A program made the position numbers and the translations under genes. The notes beneath the pieces were generated by a model. The model was not told the DNA's origin and ran no database searches. It saw only the letters and a list, made by a program, of their open reading frames with translations. Source: Luminiphilus sp. (GTDB lineage Bacteria; Pseudomonadota; Gammaproteobacteria; Pseudomonadales; Halieaceae). Taken from it: 64,000 nucleotides of DNA. Numbering within the stretch: the stretch's first letter is position 1; every line of letters begins with the position of its first letter. Below are positions 186 to 63,726 of this stretch, one piece after another. The stretch is from assembly GCA_029242325.1 (NCBI GenBank), contig JAQWUD010000016.1, positions 1 through 64,000 on the forward strand. Reading direction: 5' to 3'.

Positions 186-1211
186 ATGCGGTATTTCGTT
201 GTGGGTTTAATGGCTAATTTACTTGCGGTGGCAAATGCGCTTTCCGCCGAGCCCAATGACATCGTGTTAGGTACGCCCTACGCCCCGGAGGGATCCTTCG
301 CTGATATTTGTGCGCAACAAACCGGCGGCGAGAATTCGAAGCTACCATTATCCCCCGCCTCAGATGATTGGTTTCGTATTTATGAAGCTGGCCCTGGCGT
401 ATACTCGATTGTCGAGCCGTACCAATTTCAAGAAACTATTTCGCATTTGATTGTCGGTGAAACCCGCGCCTTGTTGTTTGATACGGGCATGGGCTTTTCG
501 CCATTGCGGCCGGTCGTAGAGCGCCTAACCAATTTGCCGGTTACGGTCTTAAATTCCCACACCCATTTTGATCACACTGGCGCTAATGCTGAGTTTGATT
601 CTATTCTCGCTATTGACAGCGACTACACCAGAGCCAATATGGCAGGCTTCGATAATAGCGCCGTGGCGGGGGATATTGCCCCCGACGCTTTTTGTGAGGG
701 CCCGCCAGTAGGTTTGGATGTAGAAAACTTTACCGTAAAAGCGTGGCAAGCCACGGGCTATGTAAAAGACGGGGATGTTATTGACCTCGGCGGGCGTCGT
801 CTTCAGGTATTACACGTACCCGGCCATACCCCCGATGCAACCGCCCTGTTAGATGCAGACAAGGGGCTGCTGTTTACTGGCGATACTTACTACGATGCGG
901 AACTATGGTTGTTTGTGCCCGAAACTAATCTCGATGATTACGAGCGCTCCTTAGCGCGGCTGGTTGAAATTGAAAAAGGCGCTAACTATCTCTTGGGCGC
1001 ACATCGTTCGGCTCGGGTCGGTGTAGGCCGCTTGGCCACGGTAACACAGGCAGTTTCGAAACTGCGCTCGGGTAACTATCGTGGTGAACCCGGCTCGGGT
1101 GAGCCGATTGTTTTTGTTATCGATGGCATCGAATTCGTTACGGCCCAAACTGCCCTCGATGGTAGTCTTTACGATAATGCCAAAGGCGGTAGCGGTCTCA
1201 GTGAGCACTAA
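186..1211 (+). CDS. secreted metallo-beta-lactamase-fold hydrolase
   Basis: The product has 341 residues. A hydrophobic N-terminus ending near AXA (about residues 1-21) looks like a Sec signal, so a periplasmic location is likely. The zinc-binding HTHFDH motif lies at residues 125-130. Further ligand candidates are His214 (VPGHTPD), Asp233 (TGDTYYD) and His272 (LGAHRS), which is a complete set for an MBL-fold hydrolase. The substrate cannot be read from sequence; antibiotic hydrolysis is only one possibility, and lactonase, thioesterase or phosphodiesterase-like roles are equally possible. The start is supported by an AGAGGAAA ribosome-binding site. The gene lies between two direct repeats in a region of broken genes, which suggests recent gain or rearrangement. 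Confidence 0.85.
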   Translation: MRYFVVGLMANLLAVANALSAEPNDIVLGTPYAPEGSFADICAQQTGGENSKLPLSPASDDWFRIYEAGPGVYSIVEPYQFQETISHLIVGETRALLFDTGMGFSPLRPVVERLTNLPVTVLNSHTHFDHTGANAEFDSILAIDSDYTRANMAGFDNSAVAGDIAPDAFCEGPPVGLDVENFTVKAWQATGYVKDGDVIDLGGRRLQVLHVPGHTPDATALLDADKGLLFTGDTYYDAELWLFVPETNLDDYERSLARLVEIEKGANYLLGAHRSARVGVGRLATVTQAVSKLRSGNYRGEPGSGEPIVFVIDGIEFVTAQTALDGSLYDNAKGGSGLSEH

Positions 1212-1301
1212 GTTGCAGGCTATTACTCAGAATATTTTTACATCAGGTCACGATGTTAAATATGATCCGAAGTGAGTCTTTTAAACTTTAACCCTTAAGC
1301 C

Positions 1302-1580
1302 ATGATCAATCATCTTTCAGCCTTTAGTTCGCGCTTTGCGCCAATCATTTCCGAGATCGGCAGCGAACGCCTATCATCTCTGCTAGTCAGTATGCTCAAA
1401 GGTTTAGTCCCTTTTGATAATGCAGTCATCGTGCAGTATCACGGTGGTGAGAAGCCTATGGTCCACTAAAATGACACCCCCGTTGGAGAGAGCAAGCACG
1501 CCACTGAAAAAGTCTGGCTCGGCTCTCTGCGTTCTACAGTTCAGCAATGGCCGGCCGAAAGTGAATTATTCGATGACTGA
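1302..1580 (+). pseudogene. LuxR-type regulator remnant (N-terminal domain)
   Basis: A frame from ATG 1302 runs 55 codons to a TAA at 1467-1469, then stays open in the same frame to a TGA at 1578-1580. The first part, with motif SMLKGLVPFDNAVIVQY, resembles the GAF-like N-terminal sensor domain of some LuxR-family regulators. No helix-turn-helix domain follows, so most of the gene is missing. The tail (QQWPAESELFDD) overlaps the right-hand direct repeat. The family assignment rests on pattern recognition of a short segment. A genuinely short protein ending at 1469 is the alternative. Confidence 0.45.
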
Positions 1581-1692
1581 CGCCAGTAAGATTTCAGGGT
1601 GATAGACCGGCTTTTCGCGATCTTTTCAGGTCTGGTGACTCGTATCCATAAGAATAGCTGCTCTCGATAGCCCTTTTATGCATCCTATACTC
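1542..1692. repeat. ~150 bp direct repeat, right copy
   Basis: This is the second copy of the sequence at 5-151. It starts inside the tail of the LuxR-like remnant and ends exactly where leucine-rich-repeat-like coding sequence becomes recognisable (from 1694). The two copies enclose about 1.4 kb carrying the metallo-hydrolase gene and the LuxR-like remnant. This layout fits a tandem duplication or recombination between repeats that removed the front of the downstream gene. Confidence 0.85.
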
Positions 1693-1693
1693 C

Positions 1694-2359
1694 ACCGATC
1701 TTAATGGACTACACAATATAGTCAGCGTGTCAGCAATACTGGCAATCGCAGACACTCCCCTCACCCATATTGACGCACTGTCAAACATGAGTGGCAACTA
1801 CTTCCAAATCATCATTGAAAATAATAAGGCACTGAAGAATATAGACGGGCTTTCAAGCATCCCTATGATGGCGGACCTCCTATCGATTACTGAAAATACG
1901 GCCCTCACAAACCTTGACGGATTAGCAAATGTCTCTGAAATTTTCGGTACCCGTTATCCTCCTCAAGTGGAAATCTATGGGAATGTCGCTCTTGAAAATT
2001 GTCACGGAGTGGCGCGATTATTGGGTTGGCCTGGCGGCCCATCAGGAACAGACCTCGCTGATGGCGTCATTGATATTAGAGACAACTCGTCTAGGTGTAA
2101 CTCAGTCGAAAAACTTCTCGACCTTTATTCCCAGCTACCACAAAGCCGCTTTATAAATTTGCTTGATACACTCATGGGTATTGCAGCTGTTTCAGGCAGT
2201 GCCGACAGCGGATCTCCAAACTCCGCCCGCGCTTCGGAAGAACAAAAAAATCCAGAGGACCGGCACGTCCAACAGATGCCTGCTTTACCTAAACTCGTTC
2301 TAGTAATCTTGAGCGGGCTGATAGGTCTATTCGGAATCCGACGATTAGCTCATCGTTAG
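1694..2359 (+). pseudogene. 5'-truncated leucine-rich-repeat-like surface protein
   Basis: The frame is open from the repeat boundary to 2359. Degenerate repeats of the form L-x-N/H-I/L-D-G/A-L-S-N (TDLNGLHNIVS, LTHIDALSNMSG, LKNIDGLSSI, LTNLDGLANV) resemble receptor-L/LRR-like bacterial surface proteins. The last ~25 residues form one hydrophobic segment followed by IRRLAHR, like an IPTL/PEP-CTERM-type sorting tail. There is no signal peptide. The only usable start is a GTG at 1727 without a clear ribosome-binding site, and the repeat pattern continues upstream of it, so the 5' end is missing. The region is visibly more AT-rich than the core genes to its right. Confidence 0.6.
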
Positions 2360-2574
2360 TGCCCCCGGGGAGGCTAACTGCCATTGTGATAGTGATGGTT
2401 ACCGCCCAGATACATTAGGGGGCATGGGAAGTTTCTAACACACCAGCCGGCAACTCCAGCCCAGAGAGCTTTACTTCAGATCACTAGCTTAATTGTCCAG
2501 AATGAATTGGGTTAAGACGATCATCCTTTAGAAATAAATCGACAGTTCATCAAAAGAAGCGCAGGCAGATGTAG
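2360..2574. other. intergenic spacer without recognised feature
   Basis: This spacer separates the convergent ends of the truncated repeat protein and the glycosyltransferase pseudogene. I see no convincing open reading frame, terminator or RNA gene in it. Confidence 0.5.
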
Positions 2575-4016
2575 CTACTCAAACGAGGCACTCCTCGTCG
2601 TTGCGAACTTCTCAAACTCCGCCATTATTCGATCTATGAGTTGACCTGTAAACTTTGGCGCCTCACCACGAGATATATCTTTGTATGTGTCGAGGAGAGT
2701 TTGATCTTCCATCATCTTTAGCGCGATCTCAGACATATGGTCGTAATCCCTAATTTCCGGGAAGGCCCTAGTCACCAAACCACCATCGCCCACGCGGAGA
2801 GACAAAACAGGTAACTCCGCTCGTAGCGCATACACAACACCCGTTCCACCACCTGATCGCGCAGGATTTATAAAGACATCAGTGATGTTGTGAACGGCCA
2901 TATTATCTTCATGAAAGCCTATAAATGTGGTTGTCTGTCTGAGACTTTGGTGAGCTTCAAGCTTCTCTGAATATCCCGCAAAGTTTCCTGCAAATAAAAA
3001 GTGTGCTCGGCTATTCACCGCAATCTTCTCAAACATCTCTAGGAGTGTTCCGTCCACGTCGATCTGAAGATGCATTCCCACAACACTAAATACAAAGCTA
3101 TCCTCGGGTATGAGAAATTGCTCACGGGTGAGGGCCGACGACGGAGGTTTCACAGCCAAATCGTATTGCTGTGTAAACAAAAATCTGTCCGTAATGCCCT
3201 CGCGTTCCATAGTCAGCGCGTCCTCCGCCGACGGATCCGAGTAGAGCTGAAAATAGTTGCTCTTCACAAGTGGCAGTCCATGCCCGAGTGGGTAAACGAA
3301 TGAAAAGCTGCGCTCTCGGAATGGCTCTGCCATTACTGCAGGCTCCCCCACACACAGAATCATCTCGGGTGACAAATTGTCTATTGCCATAAGGCATTGT
3401 CGGATAGCTATATCGCTTAAAACACCGTCCCCACAAAATGCGGTGTTAGCACTACGACAACATTATTCCGAGAAAACCCCACACTCTTTTTTAGAGCCAC
3501 CTCGTCATAAACACGCTGCACATGTGCCAACTGGATATCGAACAGCTTCTTCGAAAAGTCGCGATTGAATACCTCTCTAAGAGCCGCGCTTTTGAGTGGA
3601 TGTGCCTCAAAAAGAAGTGACTTAACGGCCATCAAGATTCCTGATGCCTCGAAAAAATCTGGGTCATATCGAGACAGGTAGGGCACTATATTGTGTAGGT
3701 GTAACGTATCCTCGGTAAGGTTGAAAAGCAGGGACTAAATCAACATACCGTTGTAAGCGTCTGGGTGACCCGTAATTTCCTGCAAAGCAGACGCTATTTT
3801 ATTTTTTTATGTCTGACTAATCGCATCCCAAGCTTCAACGACTGATGTGGCGGTAATAATAGCTTTTTGGCGCTCCTCCTTTGGAATACCCACTTCGGGC
3901 TTGCGAAGCGTTTTTAGTAAACTGTCCATACCGATATCAATCTTCATTTCTGTCTCTAGCCTCACCAACAACACATGAAACGCGTCAAGCGAAAATCTTT
4001 CACTTGCGCTCGTATT
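2575..4016 (-). pseudogene. glycosyltransferase-like gene, multiply disrupted
   Basis: Reading the minus strand from 4016, one frame continues through TAA (3809-3807) and TAG (3737-3735) to about 3430. At a run of four bases (3429-3432) the reading must shift by one base to continue into the 271-codon stretch ending at 2575. Joined, the pieces encode about 480 residues. The C-terminal half looks like a GT-B glycosyltransferase: a strand after FVFSVVGMHLQID, then FLFAGNF, FIGFHE and the donor-site-like segment NPARSGGGTGVVYAL. Two stops plus a frameshift argue for real decay rather than one sequencing error. The specificity is unknown. It lies in the same degraded region as the other remnants. 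Confidence 0.65.
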
Positions 4017-4083
4017 TCAAGCTACATTAAGTATCCGGGAATGAGTGTGTCAACTTGAGAGCTTCATGGCATATTCTTCGTGA

Positions 4084-4254
4084 GCAGGTGTGCTGAACGA
4101 AAATTGGGATGTCACTCTTTTCGCCGACAATGTCACCGATGAACGCGCTAACCTTGCGGACAACCGGCCAATCGCAGCTGAGATGCCCGGACGGGCTCGT
4201 ATCGTGACTAATCGACCCCGCACCATTGGTCTTGAAGCGCGCTATCGATTCTGA
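4084..4254 (+). pseudogene. C-terminal fragment of a TonB-dependent receptor
   Basis: About 56 codons end in GLEARYRF followed by TGA. The segment WDVTLFADNVTDERA matches the penultimate strands of TonB-dependent receptors, and a terminal aromatic residue is the usual outer-membrane barrel signal. The frame is closed just upstream by a TGA at 4081-4083, and no barrel, plug or signal sequence precedes it. It is therefore the leftover 3' end of a receptor gene, still attached to its terminator. Confidence 0.65.
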
Positions 4255-4276
4255 GTGGTGACATTTGGCTACCAAC

Positions 4277-4304
4277 AGGCGCCCGAAAAAGGGCGCCTTT
4301 TTTT
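4277..4304 (+). terminator. rho-independent terminator
   Basis: An 8-bp perfect stem (AGGCGCCC / GGGCGCCT) with loop GAAAAA is followed by a T-run. It sits 23 bases after the stop of the receptor fragment and was presumably that gene's terminator. Confidence 0.9.
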
Positions 4305-4379
4305 GCCTTTGTTTTCATTGACGCCTACAAGCAAAAAGTTGCGGCCACTCTTTGGGGCTATAGGCAGACCTTTTAGTTT

Positions 4380-5663
4380 TTATCTTCGATCAATAACTCT
4401 TTTAGCTTTGCCCTCAGAGCGCGGCAGCCCCCCACTGCTGTGCACCTTAATTTGACAGCTAATACCCACCAGATTTTTGATGCGCTGCTGTAAATCACTG
4501 GCCTGGGCTTGGGAGTCGTTTGCGTCAGGCTTTTCCTCCACATGCAACGTCACCTCATCCATGTTGCCCGCACGGTTAAGTTCTATTTGATAGTGTGGTG
4601 ACAGCTCTGGCTTTTGCAAAAGGAGCTCTTCAATTTGGCTGGGAAAAACGTTGACGCCACGAATGATCAGCATGTCATCAGAGCGCCCAGTGATTTTGGC
4701 AATCCGCCGCATGACGCACTCACTCCCCGGTAACAGTCGTGTGAGATCTCGGGTGCGATAACGAATCACGGGGAAAGCTTGCTTGGTGAGGCTGGTGAAA
4801 ACCAACTCGCCTTCCTGACCATCTTCTACTACATCGCCCGTTTCGGGATCTATGATCTCCGGTAGGAAATGATCCTCCCAAATGGTCGGTCCATCCTTGC
4901 TGTCCACAAACTCCTGAGCGACGCCCGGTCCCATCACCTCGGAAAGACCGTAAATATCTGTCGCATCTATGCCGCAACGCGCTTCGATCGCCTGTCGCAT
5001 AGCGTTGGTCCAGGGCTCGGCACCAAAAATTCCAAGGCGTAATTTGAGTTCTAGGGGATCGACACCTTGACGGTCTAGCTCATCGGCGATGTTAAGCATA
5101 TATGACGGCGTCACCATAATGATGTCAGCCTGAAAATCCTGCAGCAGCTGCACCTGCTTTTCGGTTTGACCACCCGACATGGGAATGACCGTGCAACCCA
5201 ACTTCTCTGCGCCGTAATGAGCCCCTAAGCCCCCGGTGAAAAGCCCATAGCCATAAGCAACCTGAACCCGATCACCAGCCCGACCTCCCGCCGCCTCAAT
5301 GGAGCGCGCAACACAGGTTGCCCAGTGATCTATATCATCCTTGGTATACCCAACCACAGTGGGTTTTCCTGTAGTGCCACTCGACGCATGAATTCGCGCC
5401 ACTTGGTCCATGGGCACACTGAACAAGCCAAAAGGATAGTGCGCACGAAGATCCTGTTTGGTAGTGAATGGAAACTTTTTTAAGTCTTGCAGATTTTTTA
5501 AATCACCAGGGTGAACACCTGCCTCCTTAAATTTTTCCCGATAAGGTGGTGAATTATCAAATACGTGCTGTAGTGTTTGTTGTAGGCGGGAAACCTGTAG
5601 TGCCTCCAAACTGTCTTTGGATAGCCGCTTCACATCGTTCAAGGAAGTAAGAGTTTCTGACAC
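4380..5663 (-). CDS. paaK: phenylacetate-CoA ligase
   Basis: This enzyme activates phenylacetate to phenylacetyl-CoA with ATP, the first step of aerobic phenylacetate catabolism. The 427-residue length from GTG 5663 matches the family. The adenylate-forming P-loop SSGTTGKPTVVGYT begins near residue 94, the A5-like motif DIYGLSEVMGPG is near 236, and the C-terminal lobe has the ARMP hinge followed by the family-typical MLIIRGVNVFPSQIE. A longer frame is open to 5810, but homology begins at SETLTSLNDV and the extension would cover the shared promoter with paaX. No paaABCDE ring-oxygenation genes are visible here, so the rest of the pathway must be elsewhere or absent. Confidence 0.93.
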   Translation of the reverse strand: MSETLTSLNDVKRLSKDSLEALQVSRLQQTLQHVFDNSPPYREKFKEAGVHPGDLKNLQDLKKFPFTTKQDLRAHYPFGLFSVPMDQVARIHASSGTTGKPTVVGYTKDDIDHWATCVARSIEAAGGRAGDRVQVAYGYGLFTGGLGAHYGAEKLGCTVIPMSGGQTEKQVQLLQDFQADIIMVTPSYMLNIADELDRQGVDPLELKLRLGIFGAEPWTNAMRQAIEARCGIDATDIYGLSEVMGPGVAQEFVDSKDGPTIWEDHFLPEIIDPETGDVVEDGQEGELVFTSLTKQAFPVIRYRTRDLTRLLPGSECVMRRIAKITGRSDDMLIIRGVNVFPSQIEELLLQKPELSPHYQIELNRAGNMDEVTLHVEEKPDANDSQAQASDLQQRIKNLVGISCQIKVHSSGGLPRSEGKAKRVIDRR

Positions 5664-6715: not shown

Positions 6716-7083
6716 CCACTGAAACCGTTTTGTTATGGGCGTATAGCTTCTCTGGATACGATAATGCCCCGCTCAGCGAGGAGATCTTCGATATCGCGGT
6801 GGCTGAGATTGAATCGGTAGTAGAGCCAGGCGGCGCACGAAATGATATCTGGAGGGAATCTGTACCCTTTGTATATATTCGTCACCAGATTATCGAATGT
6901 GGGGATCTAATTTGCCAATACCGTTCAGCCTGTTGCAGGCTGATGAGGCATAGAACGACGTTACCTGCAGCGAGCTACTGAGCGCCTCGGATCAGCCCTA
7001 AACCTCAATATACATTTTCACATCCTGCTCCTGGATGGCATCTACGTCTATCGCAACAACCGTCCACCCCGATTTCAACGCGT
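6716..7083. other. intergenic region with hairpin, no convincing gene
   Basis: The spacer lies between convergent paaX and the acyl-CoA dehydrogenase gene. The only open stretch (from TTG 6730, ~83 codons) has no recognisable domain or good ribosome-binding site. The one clear structure is the hairpin at 6925-6943. Confidence 0.5.
6925..6943. other. perfect 8-bp hairpin
   Basis: TCAGCCTG and CAGGCTGA arms are separated by TTG. No T-run follows on either strand, so this is not a standard intrinsic terminator. It could be a processing or protein-binding site. Confidence 0.4.
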
Positions 7084-8883
7084 CTAAGCGCCGGTGAACC
7101 AGCTGGCCTGCGCGTCGAGCACCGATCGATCCTGAGACCCAACATACCGAAGCTTCTCCGCTGTCTGCGGCAAGTGATAGCGGTAGAAAAAATGACATGC
7201 GGCGACCTTGCCCTCATAGAAATCAGTGTCCGCCTGCGCGCCACTTTGTAGCGCCTCGTGAGCAATCAGTGCCTGACGTAGCCACAGCCAGGCAATGACC
7301 AGATGCCCAAACGCGTCCAGAAATGGCGTGGCACTGGCAAGGCGCGTGACGGGATCGGGCTCCTGATTCACAGTCTCAATCGTGCGCTTGGCCAGCTGCC
7401 AGATGTCAGAAAGCGACTCACCCATCTCGGCTAGCGTCTCGTTGCCTGATGCAGCGTCCAACGCCGGCTGCATTTTCTCTTCGAAGATGGCCAGGGTCGC
7501 GCCGCCCGCCAGATTCACCTTGCGACCCAGCAAATCGAGCCCGTGGATACCGTGGCTGCCCTCGTGGATGGGATTGAGGCGGTTATCCCGATAGAGACGT
7601 TCGACGGGATATTCCCGGGTGTAGCCGTAGCCGCCCAAAATCTGAATAGCATGCTTATTGGCCTCCAGGGTGTACTCCGAAGGCCAGGATTTGGCGATTG
7701 GGGTCAATAACTCGAGTAATAATGTGAGCCGCTGCGAAGTCTGTGAATCTTCTGAGGTCAGTTGCTGATCCACCAGCTGGGAACAGTACGTCAGCAGCGC
7801 GAGACTCCCCTCCACCGCCACCTTTTGCTCCATTAGGAGCCTGCGAATATCGGCGTGCTCAATGATGGGGAGCATGTCACTGTTCGGATCTTTATCGCCC
7901 GGGTGTCGGCCCTGTGGACGATTGCGCGCGTAATCCAGCGAATACAGATACCCCGCCAACCCCGACATTGTAGCCAGCATGCCCACACCAATCCGCGCCT
8001 CGTTCATCATGTGGAACATGTTCTTGAGGCCCTCGTTTTCTGCTCCCACGAGGTAACCTAGACAATCACCACCCTCACCAAAATTCAGCAGCGTATTGGT
8101 GGTACCGCGTTGACCCATCTTATGGTTAAGGCCCGCCAGCGCGATATTGTTGGGCTCACCCGGCGAACCATCTTCTTCCACTCGGATTTTGGGTACGAGA
8201 AATAGCGAGATGCCCTTCACCCCCGGCGGCGCGTCCGGGGTGCGGGCCAACACCATGTGCACAATATTTTCGGAGATATCCTGCTCACCACCCGAGATCC
8301 ACATCTTCGTGCCAGTTAGCTTGTAGCTACCGTCACCGACCGGTTCCGCCATACAGCGGATATCGGACAGTGAAGACCCCGCATGGGGCTCAGACAGACA
8401 CATGGTGCCAAACCAACGGCCCTCAATGAGCGGAGGGAGATAGCGCTGGCGTAATGTCTCGCTACCGCAGGCCTGCAGCATGTGTGCAGTGGAGGATGTG
8501 AGAAACACGTATCCGACAGCCGGGGCATTGGCTGCCTGAAAGATGCCCTGCATGAAGTTGGCCACCATTACGGGCAGTTGCATGCCACCCAAATCCTGAT
8601 CGAAAGTTGCTGTAGGCAGCCCTGCCTCGACAAATTTTTTGAGGCAGTCTTTCAACACTTGGGGCGTGATCGCTTTGCCGTCCGTAAACAGCGGCTCGTT
8701 CTCATCGAGCTCCGCTGCACAAGGCAGAAACTCTTCTTCCGCCATGCTTTGGCAAAGATCCAGTATCGCGGTAATGCTCTCGCGATCATGCTCACGGTAA
8801 CGATCTGCCTTTAGCAGCGTACTCAGATCAAACATTTCATCGAGATAAAAATCGACGTCGCGCCGATTGACGATCATAGACAT
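7084..8883 (-). CDS. acyl-CoA dehydrogenase, ~600-aa DmdC/FadE-like
   Basis: The product has 599 residues. It is an FAD-dependent enzyme that oxidises an acyl-CoA thioester to the enoyl-CoA. The FAD/substrate motif MCLSEPHAGS lies at about 161-170, KMWISGGEQD follows, and ILGGYGYTREYPVERLYRD and IHEGSHGIHGLDLLGR lie in the C-terminal half. The extra ~150-residue C-terminal region ending in SWFTGA is typical of the long family that includes DmdC (methylmercaptopropionyl-CoA dehydrogenase). The substrate cannot be assigned. Proximity to paaK suggests, but does not prove, a link to aromatic or fatty acid breakdown. Confidence 0.88.
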   Translation of the reverse strand: MSMIVNRRDVDFYLDEMFDLSTLLKADRYREHDRESITAILDLCQSMAEEEFLPCAAELDENEPLFTDGKAITPQVLKDCLKKFVEAGLPTATFDQDLGGMQLPVMVANFMQGIFQAANAPAVGYVFLTSSTAHMLQACGSETLRQRYLPPLIEGRWFGTMCLSEPHAGSSLSDIRCMAEPVGDGSYKLTGTKMWISGGEQDISENIVHMVLARTPDAPPGVKGISLFLVPKIRVEEDGSPGEPNNIALAGLNHKMGQRGTTNTLLNFGEGGDCLGYLVGAENEGLKNMFHMMNEARIGVGMLATMSGLAGYLYSLDYARNRPQGRHPGDKDPNSDMLPIIEHADIRRLLMEQKVAVEGSLALLTYCSQLVDQQLTSEDSQTSQRLTLLLELLTPIAKSWPSEYTLEANKHAIQILGGYGYTREYPVERLYRDNRLNPIHEGSHGIHGLDLLGRKVNLAGGATLAIFEEKMQPALDAASGNETLAEMGESLSDIWQLAKRTIETVNQEPDPVTRLASATPFLDAFGHLVIAWLWLRQALIAHEALQSGAQADTDFYEGKVAACHFFYRYHLPQTAEKLRYVGSQDRSVLDAQASWFTGA

Positions 8884-55608: not shown

Positions 55609-57618
55609 TTACCCGTCTCCGGCGGCGCCTGCTGGGACCTCAGGTAACTGCTGGATTTGCTGCTCCCAAGTGGGGAGGACCGGTAAATTACCGTCATCCA
55701 GAAACATCAAACCGCGCTCACGACGCTCTATCTGTTGCTCCCGGATGAACCGGTACTTCTCAGCGGTCGCACCCGCGACATCCTCGTCGTCTCGGATGAT
55801 AGTAGGTCGGATAAAAACCAACAGGTTCGATTTGGTCACTGTGACCACATTGTTTCTGAACAAACGTCCAAGCAAAGGGATATCAGACAGCAAGGGTATG
55901 CCTTGCGTAGAGTCTTGAACGTCGTCCTTTACCAGACCACCCAACACCACAATATCACTGTCGTTTGCCAGCACTTTGGTTTCGATCTTGCGCTCATTAG
56001 TAATGACATCTGAGGCAGCCAGGATTTGCGCGGAAATACTCGATACCTCCTGCACAATATCGAGCACCACCGAATCGCCCTCATTGACCTGAGGGGTGAC
56101 CTTGAGGGTCACACCAACGCTTTGGCGCTCAATCGTCTGAAACGGATTTTGGGCTCCGTTACCTACCCCGGTGTTCGTATACGAGCCGGTCACAAACGGG
56201 ACCTGCTGCCCCACCGTGATGAAGGCTTCCTCGTTGTCCAAGGTCAACAGGCTGGGAGTAGACAGAATGTTGGCGTTGCCCTGTGTCTCGAGCGCATTAA
56301 GAATCACCGTCATGGTGAGCGACTTATCCACTACACCCCAACCTAGAGTGGTACCCGGTATCTGGGCCAAAGCTCCCGCCACTTCGCGCGTACCGATATT
56401 TTCGGAGCCGTCATCTGGAACAATCGCGCTGGCAATTGCTCGATTGCGGGCTTGCTGCGCCGAGCTGTTGCTGATGTTGCTGCCATACACGCCGCTGGCG
56501 TTGGAAAACAACCACTGCAAACCTAATTCCTGCCCCTCGGTCATTTCCATCTCGACGATGATCGCCTCGATCAACACCTGAGCACGACGGATATCCAGTC
56601 GCGCGATGACCGCCTCCAGTGACGCCATCTCATCCGTATCGGCTGCGATGATCAGGCTATTGGTTCCCGCGTCGGCCTCGATCGTCGAGTCCTTGTTGCC
56701 CGCTCGCTTGTTGCTGCCGCCATCCTCGAGTCGGGAAATATTCTGCATGACGCGGGTCAGCACTTTCGCCACTTCCTGTGCGTCTGCGTACTCGAGATAG
56801 ATCACGCGCACGTTACCGGACTGCTCCAACGGCGCATCAAGATAGGCAACCAGCTTGCGGATACGGTCAACTGATAACTCGTCGGCAGTAACAACCACGC
56901 TGTTGGTGCGCTTATCTGCCACCAATACTGCTTCCTTGTCAGCTTCGGCGCCCTCACCCTGACGTGACTTTTCTAATGTATTGAGCATGCTGACCACGTC
57001 CTCTGCCACACCATACTTGAGGCGAATGACTTCAGTGGTCTGGATTGCCGAGCGATCCATACGCTCGATAATGTCAACAATACGCCCTATGTTAGATCGA
57101 ATGTCCGAAATAATAATCGCGTTGCTCGGGGCGTAGGCTGCCATGTGAGCTTGCTGGGGGACGAGTGGGCGCAGCACAGGGATGAGCTTCGCAGCTGAAA
57201 TATTGTCTAGTCGAATAACCTGAGTAACATACTCGGCGCTTCCGACTGCGCTCCGATCACCCATGAGCGGCACTGGTGAAGAGCGCGCGTCTTTGGCGGG
57301 CACAATGCGAATCACCTGGCCACTCCGCACTGCCGTGTAGCCCTGCACATCTAGGATGGATAAAAACAGATCGTACAGCTCGGCTTGAGACACGGGCTTT
57401 GAGGAGATAACCTTCACTTTCCCCTTTACGTTTGGGTCCACCACCATGGTGGTGCCCGTGACGTCAGCGACAAACTTGATGAACTCCTGAATGTCAGTGT
57501 CCTTTAAATTCACCGTATATTCCTGCGAAGCCGCTCCGTATGAATGCGCAAGCAGCATTGCTATGGCCGCGTTACGAACATAGGTCAGACAATTACAGAT
57601 CAATGCATGAGTTTTCAC
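55609..57618 (-). CDS. gspD: type II secretion secretin D
   Basis: The product has 669 residues. A signal sequence (about 1-30) is followed by N0 (YTVNLKDTDIQEFIKFVADV), N1-N3 repeats and the secretin barrel with VPLLSDIPLLGRLFR. It forms the outer-membrane pore. The start is GTG 57618. No gspS pilotin gene is recognised nearby. Confidence 0.96.
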   Translation of the reverse strand: MKTHALICNCLTYVRNAAIAMLLAHSYGAASQEYTVNLKDTDIQEFIKFVADVTGTTMVVDPNVKGKVKVISSKPVSQAELYDLFLSILDVQGYTAVRSGQVIRIVPAKDARSSPVPLMGDRSAVGSAEYVTQVIRLDNISAAKLIPVLRPLVPQQAHMAAYAPSNAIIISDIRSNIGRIVDIIERMDRSAIQTTEVIRLKYGVAEDVVSMLNTLEKSRQGEGAEADKEAVLVADKRTNSVVVTADELSVDRIRKLVAYLDAPLEQSGNVRVIYLEYADAQEVAKVLTRVMQNISRLEDGGSNKRAGNKDSTIEADAGTNSLIIAADTDEMASLEAVIARLDIRRAQVLIEAIIVEMEMTEGQELGLQWLFSNASGVYGSNISNSSAQQARNRAIASAIVPDDGSENIGTREVAGALAQIPGTTLGWGVVDKSLTMTVILNALETQGNANILSTPSLLTLDNEEAFITVGQQVPFVTGSYTNTGVGNGAQNPFQTIERQSVGVTLKVTPQVNEGDSVVLDIVQEVSSISAQILAASDVITNERKIETKVLANDSDIVVLGGLVKDDVQDSTQGIPLLSDIPLLGRLFRNNVVTVTKSNLLVFIRPTIIRDDEDVAGATAEKYRFIREQQIERRERGLMFLDDGNLPVLPTWEQQIQQLPEVPAGAAGDG

Positions 57619-57628
57619 GGCTGTCCTG

Positions 57629-58666
57629 TCAGGGCTTGGTGAGGTCGACGCTAATCGTCACCGTTCCACCACCCCTCTTTATATCAAATGTTGCCTCGTC
57701 AGCCTCTTTCATCAGCTGATAAAGCTTGATGGTATTACTAGCGTCACTTAACGCCAGCCCATTCACCGCAGTGACAATGTCGCCCGCCTCAAAACCCCAG
57801 GTATCGAAAGCGGCTGGATCAGTCCCCGGCGCAATTCGATAGCCCACTAAGCGATCGCCCTCTCGTACTGGCGAGACATTGACCGCGGTAGCCAAAGACG
57901 CGGGGTCGTTATACAACTGATCCACGTACTCGCCCGCCAGTGCTTTTTGTGCTGCCGCATTCTGCTGGCCATCTCGACGCTTAGGTCGCGTATTGGGTTG
58001 TGGGGGCGCCGAAGGCGATGCAATCTGCTTCGAGGGCCTGGCGGGAATACTGACTCCGGGGCCATCGTATAGCTTGATCAACTCATAGGTGCCGTTATTG
58101 TCGATGACCACCTGCTGAGGCATGACCTTGGCCAACACAACCTGCCCCGAGGCGGGTAGTTTATCGCTGACCGAATAGGTTTGCTCGGCCGACCCCGATT
58201 TAATGACCGCGCTGCCCAAGCCGGCTTCGGCCGACGCCACGATACCTGTAAGCGTCAATGCCAACCGGGTCTCTTTAGCGTTTTTCTCAATACCTTCACG
58301 ATCGATACTGACCACGCTTGATTCAAGGTCCGCAGGCAGCGCGTCGGACGCACCACCAAATAAGCCGGATCCAAGGATGGAGCTGATATCAATCACTGCT
58401 GCCTCGCTGTGCATCGCAAGTGACGGCGGATTCAGCGCCATCTGTGAGGCCGCATCAATAGTGTGTGTGCGAAATGGCATCCAGACCAGCTGAGCCATAC
58501 TCACCAACGACCAGAGCACCAACAGTGCCAGAAGGCCGTTCTGCATGCGCCGCAAGCGCTCAGGATCTCGGGCATACCCCTGCCAAATCGCCAGAGCCTG
58601 GGTCTCTGTGAGAGCGGCTATGTGTTGATAGCGCGCCTTCCATGCACTGTGGTTCAGATTCTTCAC
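57629..58666 (-). CDS. gspC: type II secretion protein C
   Basis: The product has 345 residues. A membrane helix near 45-65 is followed by the HR domain (LTLTGIVASAEAGLGSAVI) and a C-terminal PDZ domain (WGFEAGDIVTAVNGLALSD). GspC connects the inner platform to GspD and helps select substrates. The start is GTG 58666. It is the first gene of the operon. Confidence 0.93.
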   Translation of the reverse strand: MKNLNHSAWKARYQHIAALTETQALAIWQGYARDPERLRRMQNGLLALLVLWSLVSMAQLVWMPFRTHTIDAASQMALNPPSLAMHSEAAVIDISSILGSGLFGGASDALPADLESSVVSIDREGIEKNAKETRLALTLTGIVASAEAGLGSAVIKSGSAEQTYSVSDKLPASGQVVLAKVMPQQVVIDNNGTYELIKLYDGPGVSIPARPSKQIASPSAPPQPNTRPKRRDGQQNAAAQKALAGEYVDQLYNDPASLATAVNVSPVREGDRLVGYRIAPGTDPAAFDTWGFEAGDIVTAVNGLALSDASNTIKLYQLMKEADEATFDIKRGGGTVTISVDLTKP

Positions 58667-58847
58667 GTTTATGCGCTAAGTCTCAGGATTGCTGTCCACT
58701 TATGATACGTCGGAGCCTCAGGAAACACCCGCAATCCGTCGCGACGCGAAACGGTAACCAACTGTCGGTGACAGTTTACCAGCTTATCGCCAATTGGACT
58801 GTCGCACCGGTTGCGCGCTGGGGATGAGCACTGTGCTAATATTTGGG

Positions 58848-58932
58848 CACCTGCGGGGTGGTTAAAACCTGAGATGCCAGAGGGCAAACCCGTCGAACCT
58901 GATCCGGATTATACCGGCGGAGGGACTAGGTG
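58848..58932 (+). promoter_or_regulatory. TPP riboswitch (THI element)
   Basis: The conserved thi-box pieces are all present: GGGGTG, CTGAGA, ACCC, GAACCTGATCCGG, ATACCGGCGGAGGGA. P1 can form from CACCT (58848-58852) and AGGTG (58928-58932). It lies 59 bases upstream of the TonB receptor gene. Thiamine pyrophosphate binding should lower expression of the operon. Confidence 0.95.
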
Positions 58933-58960
58933 AACGGGTCTAGAGACGACCGAGCGCTTA

Positions 58961-58986
58961 GGGCATCCGCCACCATTGAGGAGCCC
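58961..58986 (+). promoter_or_regulatory. possible SD-masking hairpin of the riboswitch
   Basis: GGGC (58961-58964) can pair with GCCC (58983-58986), which abuts and partly covers GAGGAG (58978-58983), the likely ribosome-binding site of the receptor gene. There is no T-run, so translational control is more likely than termination. The stem is short, so this is tentative. Confidence 0.4.
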
Positions 58987-58991
58987 AATGC

Positions 58992-61160
58992 GTGACCACC
59001 CCAACCGAGCCTTCACCTCCACCCACTCGACCACACCAATACGCAGACGCAGTTACACCTGCGAGAGCGGCCGCTGTGCTGGCATTAATGTTATTGAGTG
59101 GCGCGTACATGGCCCCTGTGGCCAGTCAGGAAGCCTTCACGCTGCTGGAGGAAGTCACGGTTACTGCAACGTTACTTGAGGCATTGGGTTCACCCGTCAG
59201 TGCAACCGTGCTGACTGAACGTGATCAGCGCCAGCGAGGCGCGGCACATTTAGAAGACGTGATCACACTCGCACCTAATGTCGCCAGCTCGTCAGGCGCT
59301 TCCCGCAACCGTTTTTTTCAAATTCGCGGTATCGGGGAGCGCAGTCAATTTGTGGAACCCGTCAACCCTTCTGTGGGGATCTTACTCGACGGTATCGATA
59401 TGAGCGGTGCAGGAGGTGCACTGACACTGTATGACCTGGAGCAGGTCGAGATTTTACGCGGACCTCAGGGCACTCTGATGGGCGCCAATGCGCTGGCCGG
59501 ACTCATAGCATTGCGGAGCCAAACCAGCGACTCATCGGTCAGCGATATGCAGGTGGGATGGGAAAATTATGGCGGCCGTCGCTTAGGGGCTCGGCTGGGT
59601 GGCACCCTCTCGGAACGGGTGCACGCGCGCTTTGCCGTCCAGCACTACGAAAACGACGGGTATGTTGACAATCATTGGCTGCAACGCAACGACACCAATG
59701 CCCGTGGAGAACTCACGGCTCGTGGCACCTTCACATGGGAGAGCGCATCGCACTCAGTCGAGGGGGGTATCTATTACACCCAAGTGGACAACGGCTACGA
59801 CGCGTTTTCATTGGACAACACCCGCGCAACACTCTCCGACCAACCGGGTAAAGATGATTTGACGCTGAAGGCGGGGCGTGTCAACTGGCAAGCGACACTC
59901 GCTGGCTTGCAAAGCTCACTGCAAATCAGCCACGCCGATACCCAAACGCGATACGGTTACGACGAGGATTGGAGCTACGTCGGCATCGCCCCAGGCTGGG
60001 AATACAGTTCCTATGATGAGTACCATCGAGACCGAGAGATGAGCAGCTTCGAATGGCGTTTACAGGCTCCAGAGGACAAGGGCAGGGAGTGGGTAATTGG
60101 CACCTACTTGCGCGCTGAATCAGAAGACCTCAGACGACAATATACCTATCTGCCCGCCCCCTTCACCAGCAGCATTGACACCGATACCATGGCCTTTTTT
60201 GGGCAGGTGAATCAGGGCTTCACTGAAATTTTGTCAGGTTTCGCCGGTGCGCGTATAGAGCGTCGGGACAGCGAGTATGACGACAGTGCCGGCGTCGACA
60301 AATCCTTTGGTCACACATACTGGACGGGGCGCCTGGGCCTGATCTGGCGCTATCAGCCAAACCAATCGCTCTTCGCGACACTCGCCCGGGGCGCACGCGC
60401 AGGTAGCGCTAACGCCGGCTTACTTGCCAGCGTGGCGGCGCTGCCAGAGCAAAATCAGAGCGCGGTCAGAGCGCTCGGTGTTTTTAACGAAGAGACCCTG
60501 ATCAGCGCAGAACTTGGTTGGCAAGCAGATTGGGCGCAACACAACCTTTTCGCACGGCTCACCGCCTTCAGCATGGAACGAGATGATCAGCAAGCCAAGG
60601 GGTCGCTCGTGATTCCGCGGCGAGACGGCAGTACCGCTTTCATCGACTACACCGACAATGCCGCCAAGGGCCGCCATCGTGGCTTAGAATGGGAAGTCCA
60701 CATTCAGCCCGCCGAGCCATTGCTGGTGCACGTCAGCATTGGCTTGCTCGACGCGCGTTTTAACGAGTATGTGGATGCAACCGGCAGCAATCTATCGGGC
60801 AGGGATCAACCTCAGGCGCCTGACTGGCAATATGCGGCAAGATTCAGCTGGCAATTGGCGGAAGCGACCCGGGTTGGAGTGGAATTCACAGGAAGCGATT
60901 CCTATTTTTTTTCTGATCGTCACGACGTGCGTGCCCCCGAGACTCATCTGCTCAACGCCAGTTTGTCAGGCGACTGGGGTGATTGGCGATGGACGTTGTG
61001 GGGGCGCAACCTCACTAACGAAACGACCTTTGTTAGGGGGTTCGGTACATTTGGCAACGACCCCCGTAAAGAATATGTTCTCGAGCCCTACCGCCAATAC
61101 GGTGAACCTCGTATTGTGGGCCTCACTCTAAGCTATGACCTGAGGGGGGAAATGCGATGA
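58992..61160 (+). CDS. TonB-dependent receptor, probable thiamine transporter
   Basis: The product has 722 residues from GTG 58992, with GAGGAG 8 bases upstream; an ATG at 58988 is in another frame. The N-terminus is long for a signal sequence: the hydrophobic core ALMLLSGAYMAPVAS is at about residues 32-46. The TonB-box-like EEVTVTAT follows, then the plug (FQIRGIGERSQF, EILRGPQGTLMGANALAG) and a 22-strand-type barrel. It is an outer-membrane active transporter. The TPP riboswitch and the downstream genes point to thiamine or a precursor as substrate. Confidence 0.9.
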   Translation: MTTPTEPSPPPTRPHQYADAVTPARAAAVLALMLLSGAYMAPVASQEAFTLLEEVTVTATLLEALGSPVSATVLTERDQRQRGAAHLEDVITLAPNVASSSGASRNRFFQIRGIGERSQFVEPVNPSVGILLDGIDMSGAGGALTLYDLEQVEILRGPQGTLMGANALAGLIALRSQTSDSSVSDMQVGWENYGGRRLGARLGGTLSERVHARFAVQHYENDGYVDNHWLQRNDTNARGELTARGTFTWESASHSVEGGIYYTQVDNGYDAFSLDNTRATLSDQPGKDDLTLKAGRVNWQATLAGLQSSLQISHADTQTRYGYDEDWSYVGIAPGWEYSSYDEYHRDREMSSFEWRLQAPEDKGREWVIGTYLRAESEDLRRQYTYLPAPFTSSIDTDTMAFFGQVNQGFTEILSGFAGARIERRDSEYDDSAGVDKSFGHTYWTGRLGLIWRYQPNQSLFATLARGARAGSANAGLLASVAALPEQNQSAVRALGVFNEETLISAELGWQADWAQHNLFARLTAFSMERDDQQAKGSLVIPRRDGSTAFIDYTDNAAKGRHRGLEWEVHIQPAEPLLVHVSIGLLDARFNEYVDATGSNLSGRDQPQAPDWQYAARFSWQLAEATRVGVEFTGSDSYFFSDRHDVRAPETHLLNASLSGDWGDWRWTLWGRNLTNETTFVRGFGTFGNDPRKEYVLEPYRQYGEPRIVGLTLSYDLRGEMR

Positions 61161-61420
61161 AGATGACCGCAGAGCTCAGCATTTATCCACTGCGCGAAGG
61201 ATATAAAGAAGCGGTAAAGGGATTTATTGCGGCGCTACTGGACGAACACGCTATTGTCGCTGTCACCAACTCGATGAGCACACAAATCAGCGGTGACGAT
61301 TCAGACGTATTCAACGCCATCCAGTCCGCGCTCCGCGAGAGCTACGAGCGGTTTGGTCGTCAAGTACTGGTGGCCAAGTTCATTCCAGAGCACTTTGCAG
61401 ATATCGGGCCGGAAGCCTGA
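61157..61420 (+). CDS. YkoF-like thiamine-binding protein
   Basis: The product has 87 residues in one compact domain: AELSIYPLREGYKEAVKGF, AIVAVTNSMSTQISGD and FGRQVLVAKFIPEHF. This pattern matches the YkoF/MTH1187-type thiamine-binding fold. There is no signal peptide, so it is probably cytoplasmic. It overlaps the receptor stop by 4 bases (ATGA) and is one base from the permease gene. It could hold thiamine after uptake or sense its level. Confidence 0.8.
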   Translation: MKMTAELSIYPLREGYKEAVKGFIAALLDEHAIVAVTNSMSTQISGDDSDVFNAIQSALRESYERFGRQVLVAKFIPEHFADIGPEA

Positions 61421-61421
61421 G

Positions 61422-61988
61422 GTGAGTGCTATCGAGGGCTGCGCGGTGGCCTTGGCGCTAGCGTACGTCTTGCTGGCGATTTACCAGCGTCGACTCTGTT
61501 GGATTGCCTCAATTGCCAGCGCCTCTCTGTACATCATCATTTTTTGGCAGGTGCAGCTGTACCTGGAAGCGGTGCTTCAGATTTGTTACATCGCCATGGC
61601 GATATTTGGTTGGTTCGCCTGGACAAATGACGATGATCAAGCAGGTACTGCGATCCGAACTTGGCCGCCGCGACGCCACGCCGCAGCCTGCGGTCTTATA
61701 TTGCTACTGAGCCTAACGCTGGGCGGCGTTATGAGTAGTTGGAGCGACGCAGCCTCTCCTTTCATAGACGCTGCCACAACGGTCTCTGCGTTGCTCGCCA
61801 CGTGGATGGTGGCGCAAAAACTGCTCGAAAATTGGCTTTACTGGATCATAATCGATTTAGCTTCCATCGGTTTGTACCTATCCCGAGACCTTGCGCTGAC
61901 GGCGGCGCTATTTGCGGGCTACGTTCTGCTGGCCTGGTTGGGTTACCGCACGTGGCGGAATCAATGGCGGCTGCAGCAGATCGACTGA
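61422..61988 (+). CDS. pnuT: PnuC-family permease, probable thiamine transporter PnuT
   Basis: The product has 188 residues from GTG 61422 and about seven membrane helices. The PnuC core motif appears as AIFGWFAW, and the C-terminal half has LLENWLYWIIIDLASIGLYL. PnuC relatives under THI-element control (PnuT) carry thiamine across the inner membrane by facilitated diffusion. Net uptake then needs trapping by phosphorylation, which fits the kinase-like next gene. Confidence 0.88.
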   Translation: MSAIEGCAVALALAYVLLAIYQRRLCWIASIASASLYIIIFWQVQLYLEAVLQICYIAMAIFGWFAWTNDDDQAGTAIRTWPPRRHAAACGLILLLSLTLGGVMSSWSDAASPFIDAATTVSALLATWMVAQKLLENWLYWIIIDLASIGLYLSRDLALTAALFAGYVLLAWLGYRTWRNQWRLQQID

Positions 61989-62782
61989 GTCAGGCATTGG
62001 CTCACTGGCAGACTTGGGATCTTCCCGGGCCACTGAGCGGTGCACCCAGCATTGGCCGCCAGTTGGCCAAGGGAAGCGGCCATTCCGTATACAACATTCT
62101 GTGTGATCCCCCACTAGTCGCTCGCATCAGGCATCAATCCACTCGGACCATCGAGAGGCCCTTTGAAAAAGAACTCACCGTCTGGTCGATGGCCTCCGAG
62201 AAACATTTGGCGCCTGGCATCGTGTATGTGGACGCGTCCGTTGAGGCAGTGATCTGCTATCGCGGTGACAGCCCAACAGCATTGATTACCGGAGAGCAGC
62301 TGGGAATACTCTGTCGCCACATTCATCAATTACCTCCTGTTAGTCATTCGCTGACATTAAGGTCGGATATTGAGGACTACCTAAAAATGCACTCTCCCAC
62401 GACAAAGCTAGCGTGGCGATTTGCCATGACAAGCGCTGACGTGAACGAGGCACTGTGTGCTCTGGAAGAAGACGACCCATACCTGTGTCACAACGACCTT
62501 ACTGCAGGTAATCTCATGCTATGTGGTGGCGATCTGACCGCCATTGACTGGGAGTACGCGGCCATGGGTAGCCGTTACTTTGACATCGCAATCGCTGGAG
62601 CGCATCTCCCCCCCGCTGAGCACGCGAAGATGTTGCAAGCGGCGTTGGGCGAGGGGGCAGATAACGAGCTAATGCGGGCGGGACGATGTATTGCCAGCCT
62701 CGTGACTGCCCTGTGGCAAATCCAATTTACGCCTGACGCCGCGCCAAACCCTGATGAGTGGCTAGCGGGGATCCGTTTCTAA
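61964..62782 (+). CDS. APH/choline/thiamine-kinase-fold phosphotransferase
   Basis: The product has 272 residues from ATG 61964; GTG 61952 is an alternative, and the open frame further upstream lies inside pnuT. The Brenner motif HNDLTAGNLM and the metal-site IDWEYAAMGSRYFDIA are both present, so the kinase core looks active. The N-lobe GSGHSVYNIL replaces a P-loop. By context it is a candidate thiamine kinase (ThiK-like) trapping imported vitamin. No thiamine pyrophosphokinase gene is seen beside it. It overlaps pnuT by 25 bases. Confidence 0.75.
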   Translation: MAAAADRLSQALAHWQTWDLPGPLSGAPSIGRQLAKGSGHSVYNILCDPPLVARIRHQSTRTIERPFEKELTVWSMASEKHLAPGIVYVDASVEAVICYRGDSPTALITGEQLGILCRHIHQLPPVSHSLTLRSDIEDYLKMHSPTTKLAWRFAMTSADVNEALCALEEDDPYLCHNDLTAGNLMLCGGDLTAIDWEYAAMGSRYFDIAIAGAHLPPAEHAKMLQAALGEGADNELMRAGRCIASLVTALWQIQFTPDAAPNPDEWLAGIRF

Positions 62783-63726
62783 TGGCGCTCGGATGGCATG
62801 TGCTGGGGGTTGGCGCCATAGGGGGGCTGTTTGCCTGCCGGCTGCAAGAAGGCGGCGCCCACGTGACGTTGCTGACGCGGGATCAGCTCGCCGACTCTCG
62901 AGCGCTCACACTGATCGCCAATGGTAAGAAAATTCATACCTTCCCCCAACAGTCAGTGGCTGGCCATTCCGGGGATACACGGGAGCCCTCCACTGCCCAA
63001 CCTGTGGGCCCTCCTATTAGTCATCTGCTGGTCTGCACGAAGGCGTGGGCCGTTGCCGAAGCGATTGCGTCCGTCGCTGACAGACTCTCAGATCAGAGTA
63101 TTGTGGTATTGCTTTGCAATGGGATGGGTCTGACCAAGGATATCGCTTCGCTGATTCAGCCATCATCTCTGGTGCTGGGAACCACCACTTCGGGATGCCG
63201 GCGCGCCAGCGATAGTGAACTGATACTGTCTGGTGAGGGGACCACCGTCTTGGGGTTGGCCGGCGACCCAACGGGTCTGCCCAACTGGCATTTGCCCTGG
63301 CAACGCGGCGTACCCAATATCAGTTGGGCCTCAGATATTGAGTCGGTCCTGCTTGCGAAAGCAGCCCTCAATGCCGTAATTAATCCACTCACGGCCCTGC
63401 ACAGGGTCGCCAATGGTGCGTTATTGACGCCCCCTCTCCGAGACACAACAGACAAAGTGATCCGCGAGATTCAGATGTTACTGTGCGCTGCCGGAGCCAG
63501 TGCCGTAGCGGAGGCACTCCCCTCGAGGGTGACAGAGGTCTGTACCGTTACCGCCACAAACCACTCCTCAATGAGGGTAGATCTGGAATCGGGTCGACGC
63601 ACCGAGATTGATGCCATCGTGGGTTGGCTGCTGACGGAACTGCTGCCAAACCCTCCGGCAACCCCCTTGCTGAGCGAACTCTATAGGTCGATACGACATG
63701 CAGAAAGATCTCTATTGTATTCTTGA
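62782..63726 (+). CDS. ketopantoate-reductase-family protein (PanE/ApbA-like)
   Basis: The product has 314 residues from ATG 62782, which overlaps the kinase stop (TAATG). N-terminal VLGVGAIGGLFACRLQEGG binds NADP, CTKAWAVAEAI and CNGMGL match the family, and the catalytic Lys is expected in LLAKAALNAVINPLTAL. PanE makes pantoate for coenzyme A. The family was also named ApbA because of an early link to thiamine (alternative pyrimidine synthesis), explained through pantothenate. Its place in a TPP-controlled operon is unusual. Confidence 0.82.
   Translation: MALGWHVLGVGAIGGLFACRLQEGGAHVTLLTRDQLADSRALTLIANGKKIHTFPQQSVAGHSGDTREPSTAQPVGPPISHLLVCTKAWAVAEAIASVADRLSDQSIVVLLCNGMGLTKDIASLIQPSSLVLGTTTSGCRRASDSELILSGEGTTVLGLAGDPTGLPNWHLPWQRGVPNISWASDIESVLLAKAALNAVINPLTALHRVANGALLTPPLRDTTDKVIREIQMLLCAAGASAVAEALPSRVTEVCTVTATNHSSMRVDLESGRRTEIDAIVGWLLTELLPNPPATPLLSELYRSIRHAERSLLYS

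Follow-up and report, generated by a model that had tools for sequence, protein, structure and literature searches.

A Probable ABC-Free Thiamine Import-and-Trap Operon with a Probably Annexed Ketopantoate Reductase Gene in Luminiphilus

Introduction

The locus considered here raises the question of why a gene that looks like one of pantothenate synthesis should stand last in an operon headed by a thiamine pyrophosphate (TPP) riboswitch. It lies in a 64,000-nt stretch of a Luminiphilus sp. assembly (contig JAQWUD010000016.1, positions 1 to 64,000; hereafter the window), in which a complete THI element is followed by genes for a TonB-dependent outer-membrane receptor (TBDR), a YkoF-like protein, a PnuC/PnuT-type permease, an APH-fold kinase and a PanE-like protein; neighboring genes overlap or, in one case, stand 1 base apart. 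This arrangement, first described in a reading of the DNA letters alone (hereafter the original prediction), was confirmed by matches to Rfam RF00059 and to Pfam and NCBIfam models. The best explanation of the whole locus, which we regard as probable on the evidence of gene content and gene order, is that it is a thiamine import-and-trap operon that would work without an ATP-binding cassette (ABC) transporter and to which a ketopantoate reductase gene has been annexed.

Structure of the Operon

The aptamer matches its Rfam model at 68.4 bits (gathering score 54.3, E-value 2.5e-11), with model positions 1–105 all covered. Rfam gave nothing else at gathering scores in the window, and no second TPP match in the assembly (2.76 Mb, 51 contigs). 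The five genes downstream, whose starts we infer, are all on the plus strand and follow one another with junctions of −4, +1, −25 and −1 nt (table 1). A consensus scan of the leader between the aptamer and the receptor gene gave no plus-strand terminator-like site. The receptor has a barrel and a plug (Pfam scores of 95.4 and 62 bits, respectively), and the permease matches PF04973 (NMN_transporter) at 165.8 bits. In approximate alignments of whole frames, the permease is 29–41% identical to eight compared riboswitch-linked homologues from named genomes and about 26% identical to Escherichia coli PnuC; from its genomic context we consider it a candidate PnuT-type thiamine permease. The kinase matches PF01636 (APH) at 44.6 bits and PF01633 at 32.6 bits, and contains the sequences HNDLTAGN and IDWEY, which we take to be APH-family catalytic motifs; among the kinase frames of at least 200 aa, HxD...N is present in 65 of 68 and ID[WF]E[YFH] in 43 of 68.

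The call of the second gene was initially weak for a single sequence (PF07615, Ykof, 24.1 bits for a cut-off of 21; PF01910, 22.4 bits, under the cut-off of 24.9). It was firmed up by a profile of 22 homologues, which matched the solved Bacillus subtilis YkoF sequences with whole-sequence E-values of 8.2e-9 and 2.8e-8 (independent E-value 7e-5 on the first repeat, and a weak 4.1 on the second), and by a confident predicted structure (mean predicted local distance difference test score 87.9; order beta-alpha-beta-beta-alpha-beta). At E-values up to 0.01, Ykof matched 18 of the 22 homologues and Thiamine_BP 21. The chain starts directly with the domain, and the protein is therefore read as cytoplasmic.

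The fifth protein matches TIGR00745 at 189.5 bits (cut-off 141.35), as well as ApbA (96.2 bits) and ApbA_C (76.8 bits) in Pfam. We aligned the PanE frames longer than 250 aa from these loci, dropping shorter ones, and found 12 ketopantoate-reductase positions identical in 50 of 50; they include K176, E256, N98 and N180 (E. coli numbering), presumably the catalytic residues. The window's genome has no other strong match to ApbA (next listed E-value 3.6e-6), and its panB lies on the contig that carries the operon. The fifth gene thus looks like that of the ketopantoate reductase of pantothenate and coenzyme A (CoA) synthesis, and not like a gene for a thiamine protein. At one locus (L089 of genome G035, 6955–7958) panE is split into two frames, either by a true mutation or by a fault in the assembly.

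Table 1. The riboswitch, its leader and the five genes downstream, in window coordinates
Feature	Position	Strand	Evidence and remarks
TPP riboswitch aptamer (THI element)	58844–58943	+	Rfam RF00059, 68.4 bits
Leader	58944–58991	+	Sequence; Shine-Dalgarno-like GAGGAG at ~58978–58983 before GTG start of receptor gene
TBDR, plug and barrel, omr1/OMthi-type candidate	58992–61160	+	PF07715, PF00593
One-domain YkoF/thiamine-binding-like protein, 87 aa	61157–61420	+	PF07615; 4-nt overlap with TBDR gene
PnuC-family inner-membrane permease, PnuT candidate	61422–61988	+	PF04973; 1-nt gap after YkoF-like gene
APH/choline-kinase-fold kinase, thiamine kinase candidate	61964–62782	+	PF01636, PF01633; 25-nt overlap with permease gene
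PanE/ApbA 2-dehydropantoate 2-reductase, probable annexed fifth gene	62782–63726	+	TIGR00745; 1-nt overlap with kinase gene (TAATG)

Genes resembling gspD and gspC of type II secretion occupy positions 55609–58666 on the minus strand, divergent from the operon.

Thiamine Gene Content

The original prediction had proposed a search for missing thiamine synthesis genes, and such genes were indeed missing. No match to thiC was found in the window's genome or in any of the 57 genomes of the genus, by a search that detected the gene in 13 of 14 known genomes; thiE had no match in the window's genome either, and the thiamine pyrophosphokinase domain (TPK_catalytic) was found in none of 58 genomes, the window's own included, by a search that detected it in 7 of 14 controls. 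ThiL, on the other hand, was matched in all 58 genomes, and over the cut-off in 55 of them, including the window's. Because thiC, thiE and pyrophosphokinase matches are absent while ThiL is found, the cell most likely needs a thiamine kinase together with ThiL, which fits the presence of a kinase in the operon.

Across the family, thiC was matched in only 5 of 140 genomes. It adjoins a second TPP riboswitch of the same genome in three of these (G093, G111 and G156) and the sole TPP riboswitch listed for the genome in the other two (G082 and G137). Loci L121 (G082), L123 (G093) and L132 (G111) are examples of thiC next to a TPP riboswitch in family members, and the import operon was not seen at the only listed TPP riboswitch of G082. 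Among 21 genomes from other families of the order, 5 had the permease only, 14 ThiC only, 1 both and 1 neither, a pattern of mutual exclusion with a one-sided Fisher p of 0.0017 (uncorrected for relatedness). According to passages of one study, four isolates of the OM60/NOR5 clade require thiamine, biotin and B12, and the required supplements as listed there do not include pantothenate (PMC3679898). These data suggest that the window's organism is probably a thiamine auxotroph.

An ABC-free operon for thiamine import and phosphorylation under a riboswitch, as originally proposed, is thus supported by the riboswitch and the gene content, from which we infer the substrate and the transport mechanism. 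At low TPP, the leader would permit expression of the operon; the TonB receptor would carry scarce thiamine over the outer membrane and the PnuT-like permease would equilibrate it over the inner one; YkoF would bind it and the kinase would convert it to thiamine monophosphate, thereby trapping it; and ThiL would finish TPP, whereupon the operon would be shut off.

Distribution of the Core Operon

The combination of TPP riboswitch, receptor, YkoF, permease and kinase recurs in many other genomes, which argues that its assembly is not due to chance. A TPP riboswitch at gathering score was found in 31 of 38 fetched loci of relatives. Six of the seven misses (L074, L076, L080, L084, L095 and L107) are loci whose contig ends before the 5' part of the operon, and the seventh (L110) has a permease homologue only, in a genome having ThiC. 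The riboswitch was matched, once each, in 52 of the 57 genomes of the genus, and in 127 of the 140 genomes of the family (over the cut-off in 124). Four of 37 genus genomes gave no PnuT match, but we rejected operon loss as the reason, since in three of them (G008, G014 and G020) the riboswitch and receptor run into a contig end; the fourth (G028, 68% complete) shows no riboswitch.

Further afield, the receptor, YkoF and permease genes occur in this order at 8 of 40 named permease loci (Colwellia, Cocleimonas twice, a gammaproteobacterial metagenome-assembled genome, Porticoccus, Steroidobacter and Paraglaciecola twice), and the kinase was detected at 5 of these. A gathering-score TPP riboswitch was present at 9 of the 38 named loci scanned (L072 and L073 were left out), including 7 of the 8 at which these three genes occur in order; the remaining one, L037, has a sub-threshold match of 34.1 bits in the right place. 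Named loci without a riboswitch were therefore rejected as a strong refutation of the thiamine reading. At none of the 40 named loci was a PanE detected in the DNA fetched. We conclude that the core is widespread and that PanE is not part of it.

Some loci depart from the common layout. At several Bacteroidota loci (L051, L054, L060–L062, L064, L068, L069 and L071–L073) YkoF immediately precedes PnuT with no gathering-score TPP riboswitch in the fetched DNA (again with L072 and L073 outside the scan); this adjacency hints independently at a joint function of the two proteins. At loci L117 (G068, genus g27; 354–4400) and L142 (G158, genus g48; 350–2762), a riboswitch, a receptor and a kinase are present and no PnuT homologue was detected in between, so that the inner-membrane step must be served there by something else. 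In genus g44 (L136 of G143 and L138 of G135), the TPP riboswitch and receptor are followed by unrelated genes on the opposite strand, and YkoF, PnuT and kinase were not detected beside them.

Origin of the panE Gene

How panE came to follow the kinase can be read from related genera. Among 32 riboswitch loci fetched from other genera of the family, 17 show kinase and panE. In 12 of these, yajQ lies between the two on the opposite strand; it is the single intervening gene in 11 (one in each of genera g24, g25, g30, g33, g37, g38, g40, g41, g45, g46 and g49), and is accompanied by further genes in the twelfth (g42). In the other five, panE comes straight after the kinase: g23 (+5 nt, two loci), g28 (−4 nt), g27 (an overlap) and g47 (+113 nt). 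E. coli K-12 (b0426, b0425) has the divergent yajQ|panE pair too, as do 4 of the 16 loci fetched around the best ApbA match in other families (L156, L158, L164 and L170, with wider spacers in L158 and L164). Within the family, at L166 and L167 (g26 and g34), the pair stands at a greater distance downstream, and an additional 10 kb of G084 (L168) did not show it.

yajQ was matched in 62 of the 140 family genomes, with a marked contrast between the window's genus (1 of 57) and the others (61 of 83). The sole genus genome with a match, G133, carries it more than 1 Mb from the operon (G133:C1:1406664-1407137, L169); relocation could thus have preceded loss. At all 35 loci of the genus that show both ends, and with the nearest start before the Rossmann motif taken as that of panE, this start overlaps the stop of the kinase gene (the overlap being 4 nt long at 27 loci, 1 nt at 5, and 8, 11 or 25 nt at one locus each). 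Because yajQ separates kinase from panE in relatives and is nearly absent from the genus in which the two overlap, the most likely course is that panE was drawn into the riboswitch operon upon loss of yajQ. The old divergent yajQ|panE pair directly follows the thiamine operon in many genera of the family, and loss of yajQ would have made panE abut the kinase, with its start overlapping the kinase stop. Given the intervening opposite-strand yajQ of 11 genera, we rejected PanE as an ancestral member of the thiamine system; together with the 12 conserved positions, it also leaves the original view of PanE as part of that system without support.

The polarity of this change, with the yajQ-linked state as the ancestral one, rests on the yajQ|panE pairs of the outgroups. 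In a tree of 59 PanE sequences rooted on E. coli, the yajQ-linked layout is the root state and changes twice to direct adjacency; PanE alone with a midpoint root requires one change, of opposite polarity; and in a tree of TBDR and PnuT from 63 loci, adjacency is scattered. The capture of panE apparently happened at least twice, the number depending on how the tree is rooted.

Its overlap with the kinase stop suggests that panE is most likely cotranscribed and translationally coupled under TPP control. The consensus scan gave no promoter-like and no plus-strand terminator-like site at the kinase–panE junction, the nearest such plus-strand sites ending at 61852 and starting at 63077. A broader proposal, which we put forward tentatively and to which we give somewhat less than even chances, is that the TPP riboswitch acts as a cross-vitamin switch in which loss of yajQ, apparently on at least two occasions, brought in panE, so that vitamin B1 (thiamine) status would set the vitamin B5 (pantothenate)/CoA pathway. 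Such a link may be adaptive, as 2-oxoacid dehydrogenases need both TPP and CoA, or it may be a by-product that is tolerated. In the openly licensed PMC papers searched, we found no description of a TPP-controlled panE in titles and the starts of abstracts, and no co-occurrence of the terms ketopantoate reductase and TPP riboswitch.

Alternative Explanations

Several observations weigh against one or another part of this interpretation. As regards thiamine as the substrate, the kinase scores only 39.5 bits with the ThiK equivalog TIGR02721, far below its cut-off of 299.45, and scores higher with GntI (53.3); NCBIfam alone names the permease PnuC, a nicotinamide riboside transporter (73.4 bits, cut-off 42.45); and, counter to an account in terms of thiamine alone, no TPP match was found in the fetched DNA of several of the Bacteroidota YkoF–PnuT pairs and of two Pseudoalteromonas loci with YkoF, permease and kinase (L044 and L046). 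As regards auxotrophy, a ThiE-family match over the cut-off occurs in one of 37 genus genomes (G017), and weaker ones in two; the G017 match, of the ThiE/TenI family, lies in a 325-aa frame (G017:C7:63234-63761). As regards control by the leader, the Shine-Dalgarno sequence is computed to be unpaired at 0.56 in the free RNA versus 0.30 with the aptamer enforced, and the start codon at 0.10 versus 0.34. The remaining points concern panE: panE is missing from the stretch fetched at 15 of the 32 riboswitch loci from other genera; 12 of the 16 loci of other families have no yajQ near panE in the 3–4 kb fetched; a midpoint-rooted concatenated tree of 49 loci (L089, with its panE split by a frame break, was left out) has adjacency as the root state, with three changes; one genus genome (G029) has a second strong ApbA match; and IlvC is present in the window's genome, where it might also reduce ketopantoate and so serve as a back-up.

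Of the other explanations that we considered, the one that survives best, which we nevertheless think unlikely, is that panE belongs to the operon by position only and is read from its own promoter within the kinase gene, outside TPP control. Neighbouring genes need not share regulation, and a promoter of its own beside the divergent yajQ is presumed for panE in the relatives. Yet the stop/start overlap is kept at every readable locus of the genus even though some of the PanEs concerned are just 34–43% identical to that of the window, and the scan of the junction gave no promoter-like or terminator-like site. We give very little credence to the idea that PanE works in thiamine salvage on a thiamine-related substrate. 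The strict linkage within the genus would be in its favor, as would the history of the apbA/panE mutants of Salmonella, which were reportedly first found through a thiamine phenotype. However, the ketopantoate-reductase positions are kept, no other strong ApbA match occurs in this genome, which has panB, PanE is missing from the fetched stretches of the named permease loci, and yajQ parts it from the kinase on the opposite strand in 11 genera.

That the permease and kinase handle nicotinamide riboside, as PnuC with a nicotinamide riboside kinase, and merely share the TPP riboswitch would agree with the NCBIfam PnuC match over its cut-off, but we find this scarcely plausible, given that the permease tracks with the TPP riboswitch, with a YkoF neighbor and with the absence of thiC, and that it is less similar to E. 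coli PnuC than to its riboswitch-linked homologues. Import of a precursor or a breakdown product of thiamine, such as hydroxymethylpyrimidine (HMP), in place of thiamine itself is very improbable in our view, for although YkoF is given as a B1/HMP-binding protein in passages of the marine B1 literature (PMC10881298), no thiE was found in the genome, so that HMP and thiazole could not be joined by the known route, and with HMP as the import a kinase for thiamine would serve no purpose. Thiamine import followed by trapping, with an annexed panE, is therefore the interpretation that we retain.

Comparison with Known Systems

If this interpretation is right, the core shows how the B1 auxotrophs of this group probably import intact thiamine without an ABC transporter, and omr1-type receptors gain a concrete set of partners (YkoF, PnuT and an APH kinase). 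The panE gene provides a clear case of a riboswitch regulon that grew when a single intervening gene was removed, and related genera show both the earlier and the later layout. Should B1 truly control panE, one RNA sensor would link two vitamin pathways in an auxotroph.

The core invites comparison with the OMthi-pnuT-tnr3 system, the last gene of which we take to encode thiamine pyrophosphokinase. Like the window's operon, that system combines a TPP riboswitch, a TonB receptor and a PnuC-family permease in one gene run with a thiamine-phosphorylating enzyme. In Bacteroides thetaiotaomicron and related Bacteroidetes, according to passages of PMC5613172, these genes form one operon in most genomes surveyed, and double deletions that also remove biosynthesis genes raise the need for thiamine. 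The window differs in having an APH-fold kinase, with ThiL elsewhere and no pyrophosphokinase match, in place of tnr3, in the addition of YkoF and in the annexation of panE. The original prediction did not recognize the five-part combination as a described system, but the core of it is of a described kind on the evidence of passages on OMthi-pnuT-tnr3 (PMC5613172) and on omr1 (PMC12442306). The latter gene is treated as that of a putative B1 transporter of marine bacteria in passages of PMC12442306 and PMC10881298, with a TPP riboswitch nearby in four clusters (PMC10881298); it is expressed by Cellvibrionales, which are cited as lacking thiE and as obligate B1 auxotrophs (PMC12442306). The likeness lies in the TonB-dependent receptor and, in some clusters, its nearness to a TPP riboswitch, whereas omr1 serves there as a marker gene and the passages contain no account of an operon that joins YkoF, PnuT, kinase and PanE. 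Passages of other papers mention TonB receptors beside pnuT (PMC2771747) and, in Variovorax, a TPP-riboswitch operon with a TonB receptor (PMC10409787).

Individual components have known counterparts as well. PnuT of Shewanella woodyi is a PnuC-family thiamine permease acting by facilitated diffusion, according to a title cited in PMC8552899 and PMC7749635; this mode of transport fits a trap made of binder and kinase. ThiK (YcfN) of E. coli is, like the window's kinase, a member of the APH superfamily, although the window's protein falls far short of the ThiK equivalog cut-off, as noted above. B. subtilis YkoF (PDB 1s7h, 1s99 and 1sbr) has two repeats in 200 residues, whereas the window's protein has one domain in 87. 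The yajQ|panE pair of E. coli K-12 agrees in its genes and their divergent orientation with that of 11 genera of the family, but there is no thiamine import operon in the E. coli stretch examined, and the window's genus has lost yajQ at that place. Taken together, these comparisons place the import-and-trap core among systems of a known kind; what differs here is that an APH-type kinase with ThiL takes the place of the pyrophosphokinase, that a YkoF of one domain is present and that panE has probably been annexed.

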